Shown here: positions 1 to 9,243 of the stretch, in pieces
Numbering within the stretch: the first letter of the stretch is position 1
How the letters are laid out: every line of letters starts with the position of its first letter
NCBI RefSeq assembly: GCF_005405885.1
Contig: NZ_BJFL01000015.1
Coordinates: 1 to 64,000, forward strand
Reading direction: 5' to 3'
DNA from: Gandjariella thermophila
GTDB lineage: Bacteria > Actinomycetota > Actinomycetes > Mycobacteriales > Pseudonocardiaceae
DNA: 64,000 bases
Program-made: the position numbers and the translations under genes
Notes under the pieces: model-generated
The model's database searches: none
The model's input: the letters and a program-made list of their open reading frames with translations, nothing else
Told to the model about the DNA's origin: nothing

Positions 1-135
1 AACACCGCCGGCCCCACCGGCCTGCTGCCCGAGGAATACGACCCCCTGGCCGAACGCTCCCTGGGCAACCACCCCCAGGCCTACTCCCACCTCGGCCTCA
101 TCCGCTGCGCCCAACTCCTGGACCGGATGCTGTGA
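1..135 (+). CDS. GH15 glucoamylase-like protein, C-terminal end (partial)
   Basis: The frame is open from the window edge and gives 44 residues before TGA. The visible end contains GLLPEEYDP, then GNHPQAYSHLGLI, the typical C-terminus of glycoside hydrolase family 15 proteins (glucoamylase/trehalase-like, cytosolic in actinomycetes), where the NxPQAxxH segment lies in the (alpha/alpha)6 barrel. GH15 enzymes remove glucose from the ends of alpha-glucans or trehalose. The alpha-glucoside-type importer a few kilobases downstream fits that role, but the catalytic part lies outside the window, so the substrate cannot be stated. Confidence 0.8.
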   Translation, partial: NTAGPTGLLPEEYDPLAERSLGNHPQAYSHLGLIRCAQLLDRML

Positions 136-139
136 CGGC

Positions 140-1492
140 TCACCTGGTCGACGCCGACCGGGCCCGGCGGGACCACAGCCGCCAGGCCCGCGGTTCGCCG
201 CGCGCGTGATGGGCGCCGGCCTCGCCGAACCGGAGGCGGATCCGCGCGCCCCGCAGCCGGCCGCGATCGACGAAGATGGTGCCGCCGGTGGCCTCCACCG
301 CGTGCCGTGCGATGTCCAGGCCCAGGCCGGTGGAGCCCTGGCTGCTCGCGCCGCGCCGCAGCGCCGCCTCCGGGTCGGCGATACCCGGCCCGCCGTCCTC
401 GACCACCAGCGTCACCCAGCCGCCGTGCCGGACCAGGGTCACCGCCATCGGCACGCCGCTCGGCGTGTGCTGGAAGACGTTGCCGGCCAGGGCGTCCACC
501 ACGGCGGCGAGGTCCTGCGCGGGGAGCGGCACGGGCGCGGTGTCCGGCTCGCAGGTGAACTCGCAGCGCCGGTTCTGGTGCTCGGCCAGCGCGGACCAGA
601 ACGCCATCCGGTCCCCGACCACCACCGCGGCGTCGCAGGTGGTGCTCGCCTCGCGGCAGGTGTCGCCCGCGGTGCGGATCAACTCGTCGACGTCCGCGCC
701 GAGGGTGGCCACGGCACGGCGGATCCGGTCGGCGACCGGGCCGCCGCCGATGGACTCGGAGTCCAGCCGCAGCGCGGTCAGCGGAGTGCGCAGCCGGTGC
801 GACAGGTCCGCCACCATCTCCCGCTCGCTGGCCAGCAGTTGCCGTACCCGGTCGGCGATCCGGTTCAGCGACGCGGCCAGGTCGGTGAGTTCCTCCGGGC
901 CGTCGATGCTGATCGGCGGGTGTTCCCGGTCGCCGCCGATGGTGGCCGCCGAGGCGGCCAGCGTGCGCAGCGCCGTGACCATCGACGCGGAGCGCAGCCA
1001 GGCGACCAGCCCGGCGGCGAGCACACTGCCCACCGCGACCAGGAGCAGCGCCCCGAACCTCGGCAGCAGCCCGGCGAGCGCCGCGTCGCCGGGCAGGTAG
1101 ACCTCGACCACCGCGGTGTCGTGGTCGACCGTGGTGACCGGCCGCAACCGGGCTGTGCCGCCGGGCGCATCGACGTCGACGGAACCGGACCGCCCCGCGG
1201 CCGCGGCCACGTCCTGCGGCCCGACGTGGCTGGTGCCGACGGTCGGCCCGCCGGCCAGGTGCACGGCCAGGTCGCCGCGGGCTCCGGCGCTGGTCATCGC
1301 GACCGCCCGGCGCAGCGCGTCGTGATCGACGGTGATCGACAGCACCTGTGCCACCGCGGTGGCCTGCGCCGTGGCGTCGGCGGACGCGCGCGCCCCGGCG
1401 TCCCGCCAGTCCAGCACCGTGACCGCGCCCAGCAGCAGCGCGGCGACCAGGGCGGAGGTGAGCAGGGTGATCCAGATCAGGGCTCGTCTCAT
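140..1492 (-). CDS. Membrane sensor histidine kinase (HAMP-HisKA-HATPase)
   Basis: This 450-residue kinase has TM1 at about 4-26, an extracytoplasmic region of about 115 residues, TM2 at about 146-166, a HAMP segment, the phosphoacceptor motif DLSHRLRTPLTAL (H232), an N-box GNVFQH and the ATP-lid motifs EDGGPGI and GLGLDIARHA. The ATG at 1492 was chosen because it overlaps the stop of the upstream response regulator (ATGA), which indicates translational coupling; an in-frame start further upstream would run deep into that gene. It should autophosphorylate and pass phosphate to the adjacent OmpR-type regulator. The sensory region resembles no known ligand-binding domain. The basic, low-complexity C-terminal tail is not conserved in the family. 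Confidence 0.88.
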   Translation of the reverse strand: MRRALIWITLLTSALVAALLLGAVTVLDWRDAGARASADATAQATAVAQVLSITVDHDALRRAVAMTSAGARGDLAVHLAGGPTVGTSHVGPQDVAAAAGRSGSVDVDAPGGTARLRPVTTVDHDTAVVEVYLPGDAALAGLLPRFGALLLVAVGSVLAAGLVAWLRSASMVTALRTLAASAATIGGDREHPPISIDGPEELTDLAASLNRIADRVRQLLASEREMVADLSHRLRTPLTALRLDSESIGGGPVADRIRRAVATLGADVDELIRTAGDTCREASTTCDAAVVVGDRMAFWSALAEHQNRRCEFTCEPDTAPVPLPAQDLAAVVDALAGNVFQHTPSGVPMAVTLVRHGGWVTLVVEDGGPGIADPEAALRRGASSQGSTGLGLDIARHAVEATGGTIFVDRGRLRGARIRLRFGEAGAHHARGEPRAWRLWSRRARSASTR

Positions 1493-2172
1493 GTCGGTGC
1501 GCAGAGCTTGAGTCCCACGCCGCGGACGGTGTGCAGGTAGCGCGGTCGCGCGGCCGACTCGCCGAGCTTGCGCCGCAGCCAGGACACGTGCACGTCGATG
1601 GTCTGGTCGTCGGTGACGTGCGGCTGGTGCCACACGGCGTTGATCAGCTCCCGCCGGGTCACCACGTTGCCCGGCCGGGCGGCGAGGTAGGCGAGCAGGT
1701 CGAACTCGCGCCGGGTCAGCTCCAGGTCCTTCCCGGCGAGCTCGACGCGGCGCTGGGTGAGGTCGACCCGCAACTCGCCGACCACGAGTACGTCACTGGT
1801 CGGTGCGCGGCTCGCGGTACGGCGCAGCAGCGCGGTGATCCGGGCCGCCAGGTGCTCGCTGGAGAATGGCTTGACCACGTAGTCGTCGGCACCCGAGTTG
1901 AGCATCCGGACCACGTTGGCCTCGTCGCCGCGCGCGGTCGCGATGATGACGGGGGCATCGGTGACGCCGCGCAGCATGCGCAGCGTGGTGGCCCCGTCCA
2001 GGTCGGGCAGGCCGAGATCGAGGATCACCACGTCGGGCTCGTCCGTCGCCGCCTCCCGCAGCGCGTCGACCGCCGTGCCCAACGCTCGGACGAGATGGCC
2101 GCGGTCGGTCAGCGCCTGGGTGAGCGCGGCGCGGACCACCTGGTCGTCTTCGACCAGCAGAACGGTAGCCAT
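1489..2172 (-). CDS. OmpR/PhoB-family response regulator
   Basis: The 227-residue protein has a receiver domain with acidic pocket EDD (8-10), phosphoacceptor D52 in ILDLGLPDLDG, and K101 in the VVKPF motif. A winged-helix DNA-binding domain follows at about 130-225 (LTRREFDLLAYLAARPG, then DVHVSWLRRKLG). It forms a two-gene operon with the histidine kinase (4-bp overlap). It is divergent from the sugar ABC operon across a 333-bp gap, so that operon is a natural candidate target, but no operator could be read. It is a typical single-phosphorelay transcription factor; the signal is unknown. Confidence 0.9.
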   Translation of the reverse strand: MATVLLVEDDQVVRAALTQALTDRGHLVRALGTAVDALREAATDEPDVVILDLGLPDLDGATTLRMLRGVTDAPVIIATARGDEANVVRMLNSGADDYVVKPFSSEHLAARITALLRRTASRAPTSDVLVVGELRVDLTQRRVELAGKDLELTRREFDLLAYLAARPGNVVTRRELINAVWHQPHVTDDQTIDVHVSWLRRKLGESAARPRYLHTVRGVGLKLCAPT

Positions 2173-2505
2173 GGGAGAGCACGGTAGAGAATGAGTTGTG
2201 TGCCGGGCATCGGCCCGCCGGTTTTTCTTCGCCCGGCATGGTCGCCGATCGTGCCGCCGGCCACGCGGTGTGCAGCAGGTATAACGGTGCGCACCCGGTC
2301 GATGACGCTCGGTGGATCGGCGGATCGCCTGTTTAAATCAACTGCGACTCAGCCTTAAGGTTTTCTTCGGCCGACCCTCGCTAGCATCTGTGCACCCAAG
2401 GAAAAGGTGTGGTGCGGATCACGGGCTGGTTCGCACCGGAATCGGCGCCCGCGCCGGCCGATGACCCGTATCGGTCGCGTCGGTCCGGTGCCGCCAGGAG
2501 GTGTC
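2173..2505. other. Divergent intergenic region between two-component system and sugar ABC operon
   Basis: This 333-bp gap holds no convincing ORF. It is more AT-rich than the surrounding genes, especially at about 2330-2400, as expected of a promoter region serving both directions. TAGCAT at about 2382-2387 could be a -10 element for the ABC operon, but no good -35 or sugar-repressor palindrome was recognised. The AGGAGG at 2496-2501 is the ribosome binding site of the ATPase gene. Confidence 0.4.
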
Positions 2506-3708
2506 GTGTCGTCAGTTGTGCTCACCGGACTGGGAAAGGTCTATGGGGACGGAACGCGTGCCGTCACCGACCTGAACCTGGAGATCCGGGACGGAGAGTT
2601 TCTCGTCCTTGTCGGGCCTTCCGGATGCGGCAAGACGACGGCATTGCGGATGATTGCCGGTCTGGAGGAGGTGAGTGAGGGCACCATCGAGATCGGGGAC
2701 CGCGTGGTGAACGAGGTCCCTTCCCGGGACCGGGACGTGGCGATGGTTTTCCAGTCCTACGCGCTTTATCCGCACCTGAACGTTTTCGACAACATCGCGT
2801 TCGGCCTGTCGCTGCGGAAGCTGCCGAAAAAGGAGATCGAGCGGCGGGTGCGCGAGGTGGCCGGCATTCTCGAACTGCAGGACCACCTGCGCCGCAAGCC
2901 CCGGCACCTCTCCGGCGGCCAGCGCCAGCGGGTGGCGATGGGGCGGGCGATCGTGCGCGAGCCGCAGGCGTTCCTGATGGACGAGCCGCTGTCCAACCTG
3001 GACGCCAAGCTGCGGGTGCAGATGCGGGCGCAGATCGCCAGGATCCAGCGGGACCTCGGGGTGACCACCGTCTACGTCACGCACGACCAGACCGAGGCCA
3101 TGACTCTGGGCGACCGGGTGGCCGTGCTCAAGCGCGGCATCCTGCAGCAGGTCGGGCCGCCCCAGGAGTTGTACGACCGGCCGGTCAACCTGTTCGTCGC
3201 CGGTTTCATCGGCTCGCCCGGCATGAACGTGCTCGGCGCCACGCTGGAGGTGGGCGACGACGAGCGGTACCGGGTGCGGTTCTGCTCCCAGTCCCTGGAC
3301 CTGCCGGACAGCGTGCTGCGGGAACGACCGGCGCTGCGCCGGTACGCGGGCCGCCCGGTCGTCCTCGGTATCCGGCCGGAGGACATGGAGGACGCCGAGA
3401 TCGTCGGCGCGGAGCAGGGCGCCACGCTGCGTTCCAGCGCGGAACTGGTCGAGGCGATGGGCTCGGACGTGCTGGTGCACTTCCCGGTGGACACCAAGCC
3501 GGTGACCACCGACGGCGTGCGCGAACTGGTCTCGGACGGCGGGGTGGTGGACCCCGGCCCGCTGGGCGCGGCCGGCGGCACCGTCCTGGTTGGCCGGTTC
3601 AGCCCGCGCACCCGGGTCTTCGAGGGGCAGTCCATCGAGGTCCGGGTGGACACCGCCCGGCTGCACTTCTTCGACCCGGAAACCGGATCGTCGATCTGGC
3701 ACGAGTGA
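2506..3708 (+). CDS. Sugar ABC transporter ATP-binding protein (MalK/MsmK/UgpC type)
   Basis: The 400-residue cytoplasmic ATPase has Walker A GPSGCGKTT (37-45), Q-loop VFQSYALYPH, signature LSGGQ (135-139), Walker B FLMDEP and the switch histidine in YVTHDQTEA. A C-terminal TOBE/regulatory domain (about 240-400) is typical of the CUT1 carbohydrate-importer ATPases. The GTG at 2506 was chosen because it follows AGGAGG; upstream in-frame codons give a non-homologous arginine-rich leader. It is the first gene of the four-gene importer operon. Many actinomycetes share one such ATPase among several sugar importers, so it may also serve permeases elsewhere. Confidence 0.9.
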   Translation: MSSVVLTGLGKVYGDGTRAVTDLNLEIRDGEFLVLVGPSGCGKTTALRMIAGLEEVSEGTIEIGDRVVNEVPSRDRDVAMVFQSYALYPHLNVFDNIAFGLSLRKLPKKEIERRVREVAGILELQDHLRRKPRHLSGGQRQRVAMGRAIVREPQAFLMDEPLSNLDAKLRVQMRAQIARIQRDLGVTTVYVTHDQTEAMTLGDRVAVLKRGILQQVGPPQELYDRPVNLFVAGFIGSPGMNVLGATLEVGDDERYRVRFCSQSLDLPDSVLRERPALRRYAGRPVVLGIRPEDMEDAEIVGAEQGATLRSSAELVEAMGSDVLVHFPVDTKPVTTDGVRELVSDGGVVDPGPLGAAGGTVLVGRFSPRTRVFEGQSIEVRVDTARLHFFDPETGSSIWHE

Positions 3709-3779
3709 AAGCGAAACCCCACAGGAGGACGGCCTCCACAGGCGAACCGTGTCCACAGGAGACCACAGAGGAGCTGTTG

Positions 3780-5102
3780 ATGAGCCGAAAATTCGGTGCC
3801 GTCGCCGTGGCCGGCGCCGTCACCCTGGGCCTTTCCGTCTTCGGGTTGACCGGCTGCGGCGGAGCGAGCGGATCCGGCGGGAACGGTGAGCTTGCCGGCC
3901 AGACCATCGAGGTCACCGGGCCGTGGTCGGGCGACGAGCAGAAGGCTTTCCAGAAGGTGCTGGCCGTCTTCGAGAAGCAGACCGGCGCGAAGGTCAACTA
4001 CACCGCGGCCGGCGACGAGGAACCGACCGTGCTGCAGAGCAAGGTGCAGGGCGGCGCGCCGCCGAACATCGCCATCCTGGCCCAGCCCGGCGCCATCGCG
4101 CAGTTCGCCCGCGAGGGCGTGCTCAAGCCGGTGACCGCCGACGTCGAGCAGCAGGTCGACGCGCACATGGCCAAGGCGTGGAAGAACTTCGGCACCGTCG
4201 ACGGCAAGCTCTACGGCGTCTACTTCAAGGCCGCCAACAAGTCGATCGTCTGGTACAACGACCGGCTGCTCACCCAGGCCGGCTACCAGCCGCCGGCGAC
4301 CTGGGACGACTTCGTCAAGACGGTCAACTCGCTGTCCGACACGGGGGTCGCCCCGCTGGCGGTGGCCGGGGCGGACGGCTGGACGCTCACCGACTGGTTC
4401 GAGAATGTCTACCTGCAGACCGCTGGCGGCGAGGCGTACGACAAGCTCGCCAAGCACCAGATCCCGTGGACCGATCCGTCGGTGAAGCACGCGCTGCAGG
4501 TGCTCCAGCAGGTGTTCCAGCCCAAGCTGGTCGCGGACGGCAACGCGGGCGCGCTGCAGACCGACTTCTCCAGCTCGGTGACCAAGGTGTTCAGCGACGC
4601 GCCGAAGGCGGCGATGGTGTTCGAGGCCGACTTCGTCGGCCAGGTGATCGCGTCGAACACCAAGGCGAAGGTCGGCGACGACGCGCGGTTCTTCCCGTTC
4701 CCGGCGATCGGCAAGCCCGCCGGCAAGCCCAGCGGCTCGGTGGTCACCGGCGGCGACGCCGCGGTGGCGTTCAAGGACGACAAGGCGACCATGGCGCTGA
4801 TGAAGTTCCTCGCCTCCCCGGAGGCCGGGGTGGAGTGGGCCCGCTCCGGCGGATTCCTGTCGCCGAACAAGGACATGCCGCTCGACTCCTACACCGACGA
4901 CCTCACCCGCGCCATCGCCAAGCAGATGCTCGGCGCGGACGATATCCGGTTCGACATGTCCGACCAGGCCCCCGCGGAGTTCGGCGCCACCAAGGGCGCG
5001 GGCGAGTGGAAGGACCTGCAGGACTTCCTCGGCAACCCGGCCGACGTCGACGGCACCGCGCAGCGGCTCGAGGCGGACGCGGCGAAGGCCTACCACACGT
5101 GA
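3780..5102 (+). CDS. Alpha-glucoside-type sugar-binding lipoprotein (ABC importer)
   Basis: This 440-residue extracellular solute-binding protein (family 1) begins with a lipoprotein signal: basic MSRK, a hydrophobic stretch and lipobox LTGC with Cys at about 26, followed by a Gly/Ser linker. The mature part has type-1 sugar-binding features such as IEVTGPWSGDEQKAF, GVYFKAANKSIVWYN and the ligand-cleft aromatics WTLTDWFENVY. It resembles AglE-like binding proteins for alpha-glucosides; the substrate is inferred from family likeness and the GH15 gene nearby. The ATG at 3780 follows GAGGAG. It would capture an oligosaccharide outside the membrane and hand it to the two permeases encoded next; its stop overlaps the first permease start (TGATG). 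Confidence 0.87.
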   Translation: MSRKFGAVAVAGAVTLGLSVFGLTGCGGASGSGGNGELAGQTIEVTGPWSGDEQKAFQKVLAVFEKQTGAKVNYTAAGDEEPTVLQSKVQGGAPPNIAILAQPGAIAQFAREGVLKPVTADVEQQVDAHMAKAWKNFGTVDGKLYGVYFKAANKSIVWYNDRLLTQAGYQPPATWDDFVKTVNSLSDTGVAPLAVAGADGWTLTDWFENVYLQTAGGEAYDKLAKHQIPWTDPSVKHALQVLQQVFQPKLVADGNAGALQTDFSSSVTKVFSDAPKAAMVFEADFVGQVIASNTKAKVGDDARFFPFPAIGKPAGKPSGSVVTGGDAAVAFKDDKATMALMKFLASPEAGVEWARSGGFLSPNKDMPLDSYTDDLTRAIAKQMLGADDIRFDMSDQAPAEFGATKGAGEWKDLQDFLGNPADVDGTAQRLEADAAKAYHT

Positions 5103-6469
5103 TGAGTACCCTGCTGACCAGTGATCAGGGCCCTGCCGCCGGCGCCGCCGGCGGCACGGCCCGCACCGGCCGACCGAAGGGCCGTACCGGCACCCGCGGG
5201 TCGCTGCGGGTGGCCGCGCTCTACCTGCTGCCCGCCGTCGCGCTGATCGCGATCTACCTGGCCTACCCGGTGGTCTACTCGATCGGTCGCAGCCTGTTCG
5301 ACCGGTCCGGGGCGACCTTCGTCGGCCTGCACAACTACGCCGAGTTGTTCACCGACCCGCGCACCCAGGTGGCGCTGCGCAACAACGTCATCTGGGTGCT
5401 GGTGGCACCCGCGCTGGTGACCGGCCTCGGGCTGATCTTCGCGGTGCTGACCGAGAAGATCCGGTGGGCGACCGCCTTCCGCCTGGTGCTGTTCATGCCG
5501 ATGGCGATCTCGCTGTTCGCCTCCGGGATCATCTTCCGGCTGGTCTACCAGGAGGACCCGAGCCTCGGCCTGGCCAACGCCGCCGCGGTCACCGTGCACG
5601 ACGCGTTCCTGGAGCCCTCGAAGTACCCCGGCGCCCGGGCCAGGGACGCGCGGGCGCTGGTCGCCGACCACGGGAACCTGACCACGACCGCGAACTACGG
5701 CCGCGGCGACGTGGTACGCCTGCCGCTGGTCGGTCTCTCCCCGCAGAAGCTGCCCCGGCAGGCCGCGCCGGCCCAGGACCTCCGCCCCGACCCGAGGGAC
5801 CTGCGTGGCGTGGTGTGGCTGGACGTCGCCGCGGGAGGCGGACCTCCGGGCACGCTCGGCGGCGGGAAGCGGGGTATGCCGGGCGTCACCGTGCAGGCCC
5901 TGCGGGACGGCCACGTCACGGCGACCACCACGACCGGGGACGATGGCAGCTTCGCCTTCCCGGACCTGTCGCCGGGCACCTACACCATCCGGTTGCCGGC
6001 GTCGAACTTCGCCCAGCCGTTCCGCGGGCTCACCTGGCTGGGCCCGGCCCTGGTCACCCCGGTGATCATCTCGGCATGGGTGTGGATCACCACCGGGTTC
6101 GCCATGACGTTCATCGGCGCCGGGCTCTCGGCGATCCCCAGGGACGCGCTGGAGGCCGCCCGGGTGGACGGCGCCACCGAGTGGCAGGTGTTCCGGCGGG
6201 TCACCGTGCCGCTGCTGTCCCCGGTGCTGCTGGTCGTGTTCGTCACCCTGGTGATCAACGTGCTCAAGGTGTTCGAGCTGGTGTTCGTCATCGCACCCGG
6301 CTCGGCGCAGGCCGACGCCAACGTGCTCGCGCTGCAGCTGTGGCAGGTCGCCTTCGGCGCGGGCGGCGGGGACCAGGCCATGGGCAGCGCCCTCGCGGTG
6401 GTGCTGTTCCTGCTCGTGGTCCCGGCGATGCTGTTCAACATCCGCAGGTTCCGACGGGAGCGCCGATGA
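5102..6469 (+). CDS. Sugar ABC permease (AglF/MalF-like) with extracellular CnaB/SdrD-like insert
   Basis: The 455-residue permease has TM1 at about 38-61, further helices up to residue 147 and a C-terminal half from about 311. The cytoplasmic EAA loop EAARVDGATEWQVFRRVTVP (351-370) docks with the ATPase. Between the two halves lies an insert of about 160 residues (151-310). Its second part (about 234-302) reads as a CnaB/SdrD-B or carboxypeptidase-regulatory-like beta-sandwich: GVVWLDV, GMPGVTVQAL, TTTTGDDGSFAFPDLSPGTY. E. coli MalF also carries a folded periplasmic P2 loop that contacts its binding protein, so a similar docking role is likely here. It overlaps its neighbours on both sides (TGATG and ATGA). 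Confidence 0.87.
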   Translation: MSTLLTSDQGPAAGAAGGTARTGRPKGRTGTRGSLRVAALYLLPAVALIAIYLAYPVVYSIGRSLFDRSGATFVGLHNYAELFTDPRTQVALRNNVIWVLVAPALVTGLGLIFAVLTEKIRWATAFRLVLFMPMAISLFASGIIFRLVYQEDPSLGLANAAAVTVHDAFLEPSKYPGARARDARALVADHGNLTTTANYGRGDVVRLPLVGLSPQKLPRQAAPAQDLRPDPRDLRGVVWLDVAAGGGPPGTLGGGKRGMPGVTVQALRDGHVTATTTTGDDGSFAFPDLSPGTYTIRLPASNFAQPFRGLTWLGPALVTPVIISAWVWITTGFAMTFIGAGLSAIPRDALEAARVDGATEWQVFRRVTVPLLSPVLLVVFVTLVINVLKVFELVFVIAPGSAQADANVLALQLWQVAFGAGGGDQAMGSALAVVLFLLVVPAMLFNIRRFRRERR

Positions 6470-7371
6470 CTGCTCTGCCCACCACCGAACCGGTTCGCAT
6501 CGTGGTCGCCGGCGCGCCCCGCCGGTCCGCGCTGGCCCGGCTGCTCGGCGTGTTCGGCTCCGGCGTCGTCCGCGCGGTGCTGGCCGTGGTCGCGGTGTTC
6601 TGGCTGGTGCCGGTGCTCGGGCTGTTTGTGGCCTCGCTGCGGACCGAGTCGGACAACAACACCAGCGGCTGGTGGACGGTATTCACCGCACCCGCCCAGC
6701 TCACCCTGCGGAACTACCGCGCACTGCTGGACAACACCGAGATCATGCGGTCCTTCGGCAACACCGTGCTGATCACCGTGCCGGCCACGGTGCTGGTGAT
6801 CGTGATCGCCGCGCTGGCCGCGTACGCGCTGGCGTGGATCGACTTCCCCGGCCGGGACTGGCTCACCGTGCTGATCGTCGGCCTGCTGGTGATGCCGATC
6901 CAGGTCGCGCTGATCCCGATCTCCCGGCTGTACGGGCTGTTCGGGCTGTTCGGATCGATCGCCGGGGTGGTCATGTTCCACGTGGCCTTCGGCCTGCCGT
7001 TCGCGGTGTTCCTGCTGCGGAACTTCTTCGCCGGGATTCCTGCCGACCTGCTGGAGGCGGCACGCATGGACGGCGCGAAGGAGTGGCTGATCTTCCGCAG
7101 GGTGGTGCTGCCGATCGGGCTGCCGGCCATCGCCTCGCTGGCGATCTTCCAGTTCCTCTGGGTGTGGAACGACCTGCTGGTCGCGCTGGTGTTCGCGGAC
7201 GACCGGTCCGCGCCGATCACCCTGGCGCTGCGGTCCCAGCTCCGCGAGTTCGGTACCAACATCGACGTGCTGGCCACCGGCTCGTTCCTGTCGATGGTGG
7301 TCCCGCTGGTGGTGTTCTTCGCGTTCCAGCGGTTCTTCGTGCAGGGCGTGCTGGCTGGCTCCACGAAGTAG
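6466..7371 (+). CDS. Sugar ABC permease (AglG/MalG-like)
   Basis: This 301-residue, six-helix permease has an N-terminal helix at about 33-54, a typical MalG-type core and the EAA loop EAARMDGAKEWLIFRRVVLP that binds the ATPase. The final stretch FFVQGVLAGSTK matches the C-terminal tail of MalG-like proteins, which in E. coli reaches towards the ATPase. The ATG overlaps the stop of the preceding permease (ATGA), so the two permeases are coupled. It is the last gene of the importer operon; a strong inverted repeat follows. Substrate as for the binding protein: probably an alpha-glucoside. Confidence 0.88.
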   Translation: MTALPTTEPVRIVVAGAPRRSALARLLGVFGSGVVRAVLAVVAVFWLVPVLGLFVASLRTESDNNTSGWWTVFTAPAQLTLRNYRALLDNTEIMRSFGNTVLITVPATVLVIVIAALAAYALAWIDFPGRDWLTVLIVGLLVMPIQVALIPISRLYGLFGLFGSIAGVVMFHVAFGLPFAVFLLRNFFAGIPADLLEAARMDGAKEWLIFRRVVLPIGLPAIASLAIFQFLWVWNDLLVALVFADDRSAPITLALRSQLREFGTNIDVLATGSFLSMVVPLVVFFAFQRFFVQGVLAGSTK

Positions 7372-8490: not shown

Positions 8491-9243
8491 TCAGTTGTTG
8501 TCGATGAACTGCTGGGCCAGCGCCCGGCCGCGGGCGACCGCGGCGGCGTGGTTCTCGATGGGCGACACCTTGGAGTTCTTGAACACGATGTAGGTGACCC
8601 CGGAGTCCACCCCGCCGTTGCTCGGGTCCGGGTTGATGCCCAGGGCCTTGGCGGTGGCGTAGGACGCCTCGCCGATGATGCCGCTGGGCCCCTCGTCGCC
8701 GAAGACGGCGTACTCGACGTGGCCGTTGTAGATCACCGCGACCACGTCGCCGCCCTGGAGGCCGGCCTTCTGGTAGTCCCACCTGCCGCTGGGTAGCGGG
8801 ATCACCACGTACGGCAGCTTCGCCGCGTTCAGCGGCCGGCCGTCGGACTGGTGGAACGAGGTGTCGGCCTGGAAGCAGCAGTCGGTGTTCTCGTTGCACT
8901 GCGACGTGCGCTGGCCGTCGCAGTCGATGTCCATGTCGGCCTTCCAGAAGTAGGCCCCGTTGGCGCCGCAGATCGCGACGGTGGCCGAGCCGGCGTCCTC
9001 GTCGGTCTTGTACTTGCCGTTCGAGACCTGGTTGCAGTTCTTGGTCTTGGCCAGCAACTGGCTGGCCGTCGGGGCGCCGTCGTCCGCCAGCGGCGCGGCC
9101 TGGACCGAGCCCGCGGTCGTGCCGGCGGCCGGGGAGGCGACCGCGGGTTGGGCGGCCGCGTGCGTCCAGGACGTGCCCAGCGCGGGTAAGACGGCGGCGC
9201 CCACGGTGACCAGCGCGGCCCCGAGCACCTTGATCCTGTTCAT
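8491..9243 (-). CDS. Secreted GH75 chitosanase
   Basis: The 250-residue protein has a signal peptide (MNRIKVLGAALVTVGAAVLP, cleavage near residue 31), a short Ala/Pro linker and a glycoside hydrolase family 75 domain. The catalytic region contains the acidic run DMDIDCDG (D103, D105, D107, D109) and the later FGDEGP with E184, matching the Asp and Glu catalytic residues known for GH75 endo-chitosanases. Several cysteines (QCNENTDCCF) suggest disulfides. It would cleave deacetylated chitin outside the cell to chito-oligosaccharides. It is monocistronic; a palindrome resembling the chitosanase operator of streptomycetes lies just upstream. The ATG at 9243 follows GAGG. Confidence 0.88.
   Translation of the reverse strand: MNRIKVLGAALVTVGAAVLPALGTSWTHAAAQPAVASPAAGTTAGSVQAAPLADDGAPTASQLLAKTKNCNQVSNGKYKTDEDAGSATVAICGANGAYFWKADMDIDCDGQRTSQCNENTDCCFQADTSFHQSDGRPLNAAKLPYVVIPLPSGRWDYQKAGLQGGDVVAVIYNGHVEYAVFGDEGPSGIIGEASYATAKALGINPDPSNGGVDSGVTYIVFKNSKVSPIENHAAAVARGRALAQQFIDNN

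Follow-up and report, generated by a model that had tools for sequence, protein, structure and literature searches.

An SdrD_B-type beta-sandwich in an extracellular loop of a sugar-importer permease from Gandjariella thermophila and other Actinomycetota

What is a domain of a kind known from bacterial adhesins doing in a membrane subunit of a sugar importer? This question is raised by a gene in the first 64,000 nucleotides of contig NZ_BJFL01000015.1 of the actinobacterium Gandjariella thermophila (assembly GCF_005405885.1); the whole 64,000-nucleotide stretch is hereafter called the window. The gene (5102..6469, + strand), defined by its open reading frame (ORF), translation, Pfam matches and an AlphaFold2 (AF2) model, encodes a 455-residue permease of the MalF/UgpA type, referred to here as P0001, with an insert in an extracellular loop. 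The architecture is real and well conserved, a familiar domain being set into a familiar type of transporter at a position for which we know of no such domain, and in open-licence PubMed Central we found no paper on sugar permeases that contain a CnaB, SdrD_B or carboxypeptidase-regulatory domain. The insert is a graft of about 135 residues in two parts, one rich in strands and lacking clear relatives, the other an SdrD_B-type beta-sandwich, and the role that we prefer for it, with a probability of roughly 45%, is that of docking the importer's binding lipoprotein.

Fold, topology and extent of the graft

The AF2 model of P0001, built from 85 aligned sequences (the window sequence and 84 of 104 related frames; L097, L115, L140 and repeat fetches were excluded), has a mean predicted local distance difference test score (pLDDT) of 86.7 and a predicted template modelling score of 0.69. 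Six long helices (transmembrane helix (TM) 1, 32–63; TM2, 86–119; TM3, 122–149; TM4, 315–343; TM5, 360–388; TM6, 425–454) make up a six-helix core with the EAA motif on the cytoplasmic side, the coupling motif itself being EAARVDGA at residues 351–358 (6152..6175, + strand), with a model helix at 347–355. In MalF-type permeases the EAA helix after TM4 is an established cytoplasmic marker, and because it marks the inside, the TM3–TM4 loop is placed outside the cell. This loop, residues 150–314 (5549..6043, + strand), is enlarged in the model and stands as a gap in alignments with MalF and SugA; it contains a helix at 157–169, three strands within 186–210 and the strands of a sandwich from 234 to 298. 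Averaged over ten residues, the pLDDT is 86–98 over residues 171–300, 58–83 over 141–170 and 74–86 over 301–320. The loop folded alone was again confident (87–98 over model residues 31–160, which are permease residues 178–307), with helix 157–169 not formed, and the two models are consistent with the graft being a confident folded unit. The placement outside the cell proposed in the initial annotation is borne out by the helix order: residues 234–302, for which a test had been set beforehand, lie outside the cytoplasm in the full-length model and fold into a beta-sandwich both there and in the loop-only model.

Comparison with insert-free relatives shows how much of the loop is additional. All 17 of these have 35–44 residues opposite the 176 residues of P0001 from 145 to 320, so that the net graft amounts to 132–141 residues and spans residues ~170–308 (5609..6025, + strand; edges approximate). 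An insert-free loop, for example IGLLNQIVVSLGGEPKQWLL, resembles GLANAAAVTVHD ... WLGP of P0001, and residues 150–169 and 309–314 as a whole resemble the ordinary loop; going by this likeness, helix 157–169 and the terminal WLGP probably belong to the ordinary loop, not to the graft. The helix was dropped as a portion of the graft after this comparison, and a graft comprising the whole ~160-residue loop is ruled out, since the ordinary loop accounts for 35–44 residues. The initial annotation had taken about 160 residues to be inserted between the permease halves; the enlargement of the loop stands, while the insertion proper is shorter.

The second part of the graft, residues 234–302 (5801..6007, + strand), is a genuine SdrD_B/CnaB-type beta-sandwich, as had been supposed from the sequence at the outset, and Pfam, a PDB profile search and the model all agree in this. 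Against Pfam-A, P0001 matches CarboxypepD_reg at 257–305 (36.3 bits, cut-off 32.3) and SdrD_B at 238–298 (32.4 bits, cut-off 29.7), and since two cut-offs are passed the sandwich is more than a chance resemblance. A profile of the 85 related loops searched against the PDB finds SdrD at E 6.9e-17 and UafA at E 7e-5, and when the loops were scanned one by one at E<=0.01, CarboxypepD_reg was detected in 75/85 and SdrD_B in 67/85. In VIA fold comparison, the insert model matches SdrD B1 (10ps) with Z 5.1 and 2.5 Å over 70 residues at 24% identity, and UafA (3irp) with Z 4.9, these matches covering insert model residues 84–158, equivalent to permease residues 231–305. Keeping in mind that such Z scores are modest by themselves and that rows for E. 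coli alpha-2-macroglobulin tie with SdrD B1, it is the sequence profile that settles the SdrD_B identity; a Foldseek search with just the insert returned nothing at E<=0.001.

Within residues 233–311 no lysine column exceeds 24/85, so no isopeptide bond is expected in the sandwich and an isopeptide-type CnaB domain is ruled out. The D ... D..E motif of SdrD_B domains supplies calcium ligands, and the corresponding acidic triplet, D241/D253/E256, is complete in 68/85 aligned sequences, position 253 being D in 72/85 and position 256 E in 78/85. In the window copy this motif is partly lost, with G253 and K256. The conserved aromatic noticed in the sandwich besides F284 is W239 (75/85), which its place in the SdrD_B motif would make a core residue. 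A further SdrD_B-like stretch (E 1.3e-6) lies in an 899-residue frame elsewhere in the same genome (G000 contig C1:5455–5628, + strand). The first part of the graft, residues ~170–232 (5609..5797, + strand), is described by AF2, conservation, Foldseek and VIA and has strands at 186–189, 192–195 and 204–210. VIA rows that reach into it (RrgB, Z 4.5–4.7; alpha-2-macroglobulin, Z 5.2) are too weak for either protein to be named as its relative.

The obvious point of comparison is the P2 loop of E. coli MalF, the textbook folded loop holding a binding protein, which is also beta-rich. MalF, in the MalFGK2 complex, is likewise the MalF-type subunit of a sugar importer, its folded domain also being part of an extracellular loop, and P2 had initially been thought to occupy a comparable place. 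In the alignment, P0001 73–151 corresponds to MalF 258–342 and P0001 315–451 to MalF 365–510. P2 is given as MalF residues 91–271 and described as contacting the binding protein MalE (PMC3150292). From these limits together with the alignment, P2 lies in the core TM1–TM2 loop whereas the graft lies in the core TM3–TM4 loop, opposite MalF 342–365; a common site is therefore ruled out, and what the two share is the membrane face. No part of P2 was aligned with the insert in the search. The analogy is thus one of kind, neither of site nor of family, and for the graft a contact with the binding protein is putative.

Among solved permeases the closest is SugA of LpqY-SugABC, the mycobacterial trehalose importer, which is of the same actinobacterial sugar importer type as the window system; this holds by fold (7caf_A, Z 21.4, 4.3 Å, 268 residues) and by sequence (7cad_A, E 3.6e-17). 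SugA differs in having 305 residues and no insert, P0001 34–143 and 317–445 matching SugA 20–135 and 166–288. The B domains of SdrD and UafA belong to the same domain family as the sandwich by both profile and fold, but those of SdrD form the stalk of a wall-anchored adhesin whereas P0001 has a single domain in a transporter loop, and the loop after D241 also differs, the window copy having its G and K where most relatives have D and E. Variability of the TM3–TM4 loop (loop P2 of PotB and PotC) is likewise reported for the spermidine importer PotABC, in which PotB has an extra helix at 129–137 in this loop and PotC residues 126, 127 and 145 bind the C-lobe of PotD in PotD-PotABC (PMC11414716). 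The addition in PotB is, unlike the graft, only a short helix and no folded domain. The three PotC residues probably lie in the TM3–TM4 loop, that is, the loop corresponding to the one that carries the graft.

Distribution, selection and degenerate relatives

A survey of actinobacteria, proposed together with the initial annotation, finds that the insert recurs across Actinomycetota, to which sampling was confined (24/396 genomes of a phylum sample and 69/394 of a class sample, the two samples overlapping). In the phylum sample 82/396 genomes match at E<=0.001, near-full-length in the 24 (E<=3.4e-32; counted from printed rows), and in the other 58 the best of the matches listed cover part of the loop, mostly the sandwich, in other, often long, frames. 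The class sample yielded matches in 70/394 genomes, of which 69 were near-full-length at E<=1.2e-58, and among 100 genomes of relatives the closest form was present in 8 including the window's own (54–100% identity, E<=1.3e-144) and a divergent fused form in 2. Scanning of GTDB contigs gave 253 pattern matches, from which 199 relatives were confirmed. All locus counts given below refer to 80 of these 199; the 80 all bear actinobacterial names and include Lentzea, Amycolatopsis, Pseudonocardia, Saccharothrix, Nocardiopsis and Streptomyces as well as Micromonosporaceae, Catenulispora, Sphaerisporangium and Intrasporangium.

The enlarged stretch measures 154–183 residues in 104 related frames (median 162) and 154–170 in the 102 unfused ones. 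With the insert columns removed, a tree from a quick search, containing long branches (L010, non_L021), puts the 85 insert rows on one side of a single branch and the 17 insert-free rows on the other, with a Shimodaira–Hasegawa-like approximate likelihood ratio support of 97; the insert-free rows represent 17 of the 20 loci L011–L030, the other three having given no BLAST row. This topology fits a single acquisition of the insert and, as far as the sequences go, the architecture is a stable trait of one Actinomycetota permease subfamily. In one relative, Pseudonocardia sp. CNS-004 (L115), the permease is split into two frames (residues 33–177 and 177–454), by a frameshift that is either genuine or an error of the draft sequence.

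Selection was assessed from the ratio of nonsynonymous to synonymous divergence (dN/dS) in 39 independent pairs, of which the 22 with an overall dN<0.15 were used. In these close pairs the ratio is 0.12–0.61 in the sandwich and 0.22–0.76 in residues 150–232, each above that of TM4–6, values which we take as upper bounds because synonymous distances are probably underestimated in GC-rich DNA. The window's own pair (dN 0.234, outside the 22) gives 0.89 for residues 150–232 and 0.44 for the sandwich, and in distant pairs, where synonymous change is saturated, the ratio reaches up to 1.4. The insert looks to be under purifying selection. Conserved positions flank it (G156, N159, A160 and W312–P315), and G, N and W-L recur at similar places in many insert-free relatives.

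A query run against 150 genomes of the same family as the window's matched 15, 10 with the ordinary form and 5 with a degenerate one (G031, G042, G857 and G880 with loci L038, L039, L199 and L200, and G913 with L201). In all five degenerate modules the two permeases are fused and the EAA motif is gone from the fused product, the stretch also being shortened in G913. In four of the five, the binding-protein gene is preceded by an ATPase-like gene whose product has other residues in place of Walker A (in the window ATPase, GPSGCGKTT), of the LSGGQ signature and of the Walker B glutamate; in G913 no ATPase-like gene was found within the fetched stretch. The modules look kept and not decaying, since the frames are open and the ATPases 37–70% alike. 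The enlarged loop of 154–183 residues is retained in 4/5 of the fused permeases, and that of G913 (L201:6088–7887, - strand) has 17 residues opposite the 161 of P0001, the graft being gone and the binding-protein gene kept. In four cases the module is flanked by an RNase E/G gene and obg, and in all five a related protein is encoded directly downstream, which appears, from a reading of its sequence, to have two membrane helices near its start. Pfam returns sub-threshold TPR matches for 4/5 of these proteins, NB-ARC for one (G031) and nothing for that of G913, whose putative NTPase-like part is suggested by ~35% identity to the G031 protein. PADLOC, given the five proteins, found nothing.

These modules raise the possibility, which we consider unlikely, that insert and binding protein form an external receptor unit able to work without transport, and that an importer was turned into an ATP-dead receptor in one family. 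The downstream protein, apparently membrane-anchored and with parts that read as TPR-like and in two cases as STAND-like, would then relay the signal. On that view the adhesin-type insert would serve in sensing or coupling, and NLR-like receptors would have arisen from sugar importers. One search of open-licence PubMed Central for the dead-importer idea found no paper. The family in any event supplies natural variants with the insert, without it and ATP-dead.

Candidate roles of the graft

We hypothesize that the graft, standing on the membrane face where the binding lipoprotein docks, would serve as a permanent arm for docking or guidance and hold this lipid-anchored protein close to the importer entrance. 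Its action would resemble that of MalF-P2, but in a domain of separate origin on another loop. The partner that the initial annotation had envisaged is indeed next door: in this actinobacterium P0001 adjoins the gene for a solute-binding protein (3780..5102, + strand; SBP_bac_1, 83 bits) with a lipobox-like signal, LTGC, which results from choosing ATG 3780 as the start within ORF 3705–5102. Across the 80 loci, 28 of which are shorter than the full flank so that contig ends explain some missing neighbours, a binding-protein gene occurs in 75, the five misses (L050, L054, L067, L097, L105) being cut by the contig end, and a second permease occurs in 78. The ATPase gene is in place in 43/80, a similar kinase is found in 35/80 and a similar regulator in 37/80 (two of the latter, L072 and L084, weak and elsewhere), and these three genes come and go while the insert stays. 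We favour docking because the loop is on the docking face, because PotC binds PotD through what is probably the corresponding loop, and because no other partner outside the membrane is, like the binding protein, present wherever the contig allows. If docking is true, this would be a second independent graft, of another fold and in another loop, across much of Actinomycetota including Streptomyces; it would give maltose-type importers at least a second means of holding or gating their binding protein, and would bear on the way in which a lipid-anchored binding protein is retained at the importer gate in Gram-positive cells.

Several observations weigh against this preferred role. The end of TM3 and the start of the loop (141–160) have a pLDDT of only 58–68, which leaves the modelled orientation of the graft to the membrane unsure, and change is faster in the insert than in the helices, with mean entropies of 1.98 and 1.68 vs 1.28 and 0.94. 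The degenerate permease of G913 lacks the graft with a binding-protein gene still adjoining. Distances of the insert are correlated with those of the binding protein beyond what the permease core accounts for (partial r 0.30–0.37 in three locus sets), but so are those of insert and kinase (partial r 0.32 in the same 32 loci) and those of sandwich and ATPase (0.47 in 45 loci, though 0.10 in the 32), so that the covariation is non-specific and decides nothing. Coevolution was accordingly rejected as proof of docking: a first partial r of 0.50, vs 0.04 with the second permease, in 54 loci had seemed specific to the binding protein, and the specificity was dropped because it did not hold with quadratic terms and with the kinase as a control comparison.

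Could the graft instead merely brace the TM3–TM4 loop or cover the outer gate, touching no partner beyond the permease pair? Both of its ends join ordinary loop with conserved flanks, and SdrD_B-type domains are often plain rigid spacers; those flanks, however, belong to a loop common to insert-free relatives and so say little of the graft, and bracing leaves a two-part graft of near-constant length unexplained. We regard this as a serious alternative, though an unlikely one. Rather less probable is a contact with the wall, in which the adhesin-type domain would bind peptidoglycan, teichoic acid or a polysaccharide substrate and position the importer within the matrix of the wall. Wall-anchored surface proteins are known to contain SdrD_B domains, and SdrD is what the graft matches, but the SdrD B domains themselves are spacers and not ligand binders, and the one strongly conserved sandwich aromatic besides F284 is W239, taken for a core residue.

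A report of the transport state to a neighbouring sensor kinase seems improbable to us, although a divergent kinase/regulator pair stands beside the window operon with similar genes at 35 and 37 of the 80 loci, the covariation of insert with kinase is as given above, and degenerate relatives without a working ATPase keep the insert in 4/5 cases. Where the sequence up to the permease end is 6 kb or longer (68 loci), a kinase is present in 33 and absent in 35, and the insert is equally present in both; a kinase as the general reason for the insert is thereby ruled out. That the insert is a non-functional passenger, decaying or tolerated, is very improbable. Its lower conservation relative to the helices, its clean loss in G913 and the ratio of 0.89 over residues 150–232 in the window's own pair would agree with such a view, which is disfavoured by a dN/dS well below 1 in all 22 close pairs, by the constancy of length and by the recurrence of an open frame and of the sequence pattern across the sampled phylum.

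The operon in the window and its likely substrate

The frame of P0001 is intact, its ATG at 5102 overlapping the stop of the binding-protein gene and its own stop lying at 6467–6469. BPD_transp_1 matches residues 309–444 with 51.1 bits (Pfam-A cut-off 26.4), and no NCBIfam equivalog cut-off is reached, GlcT scoring best (71.9 bits, cut-off 360), ahead of MalF (56.7, cut-off 392) and UgpA (52.6, cut-off 335); by these profile scores P0001 is of the broad MalF/UgpA type but not a MalF, GlcT or UgpA equivalog. According to Pfam its operon is complete, with the binding protein, a partner MalG/UgpE-type permease without insert (6466..7371, + strand; BPD_transp_1, 55 bits) and a MalK/UgpC-type ATPase (2407..3708, + strand; ABC_tran and OB_MalK; true start perhaps further in), which passes the NCBIfam UgpC cut-off (443.1 vs 432 bits). 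The window system is a type I, maltose-type sugar importer. Divergent from it are genes for a response regulator (1489..2172, - strand; Response_reg, Trans_reg_C) and a sensor histidine kinase (140..1633, - strand; HisKA, HATPase_c).

The gene neighbours suggest an alpha-glucoside, for instance trehalose or malto-oligosaccharides, as the cargo, because a glycoside hydrolase (GH) of family GH15 occurs at some loci, the window begins with the 3' end of a GH15-like gene that the contig end truncates (4..126, + strand; 90% identity to residues 306–346 of a Lentzea GH15 protein), and a GH13 gene is directly upstream of the binding-protein gene in both annotated Streptomyces plasmid loci read. It speaks against this cargo that GH15 is present in only 11/80 and GH13 in only 4/80 loci. 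In the window's genome (G000), a 40-residue end similar to that of the GH15-like gene is encoded on contig C9 (173400–173519), and a fuller GH15 with 49% identity on contig C21. Near the importer, the window also encodes a GH75 chitosanase-type protein (8491–9243, - strand).

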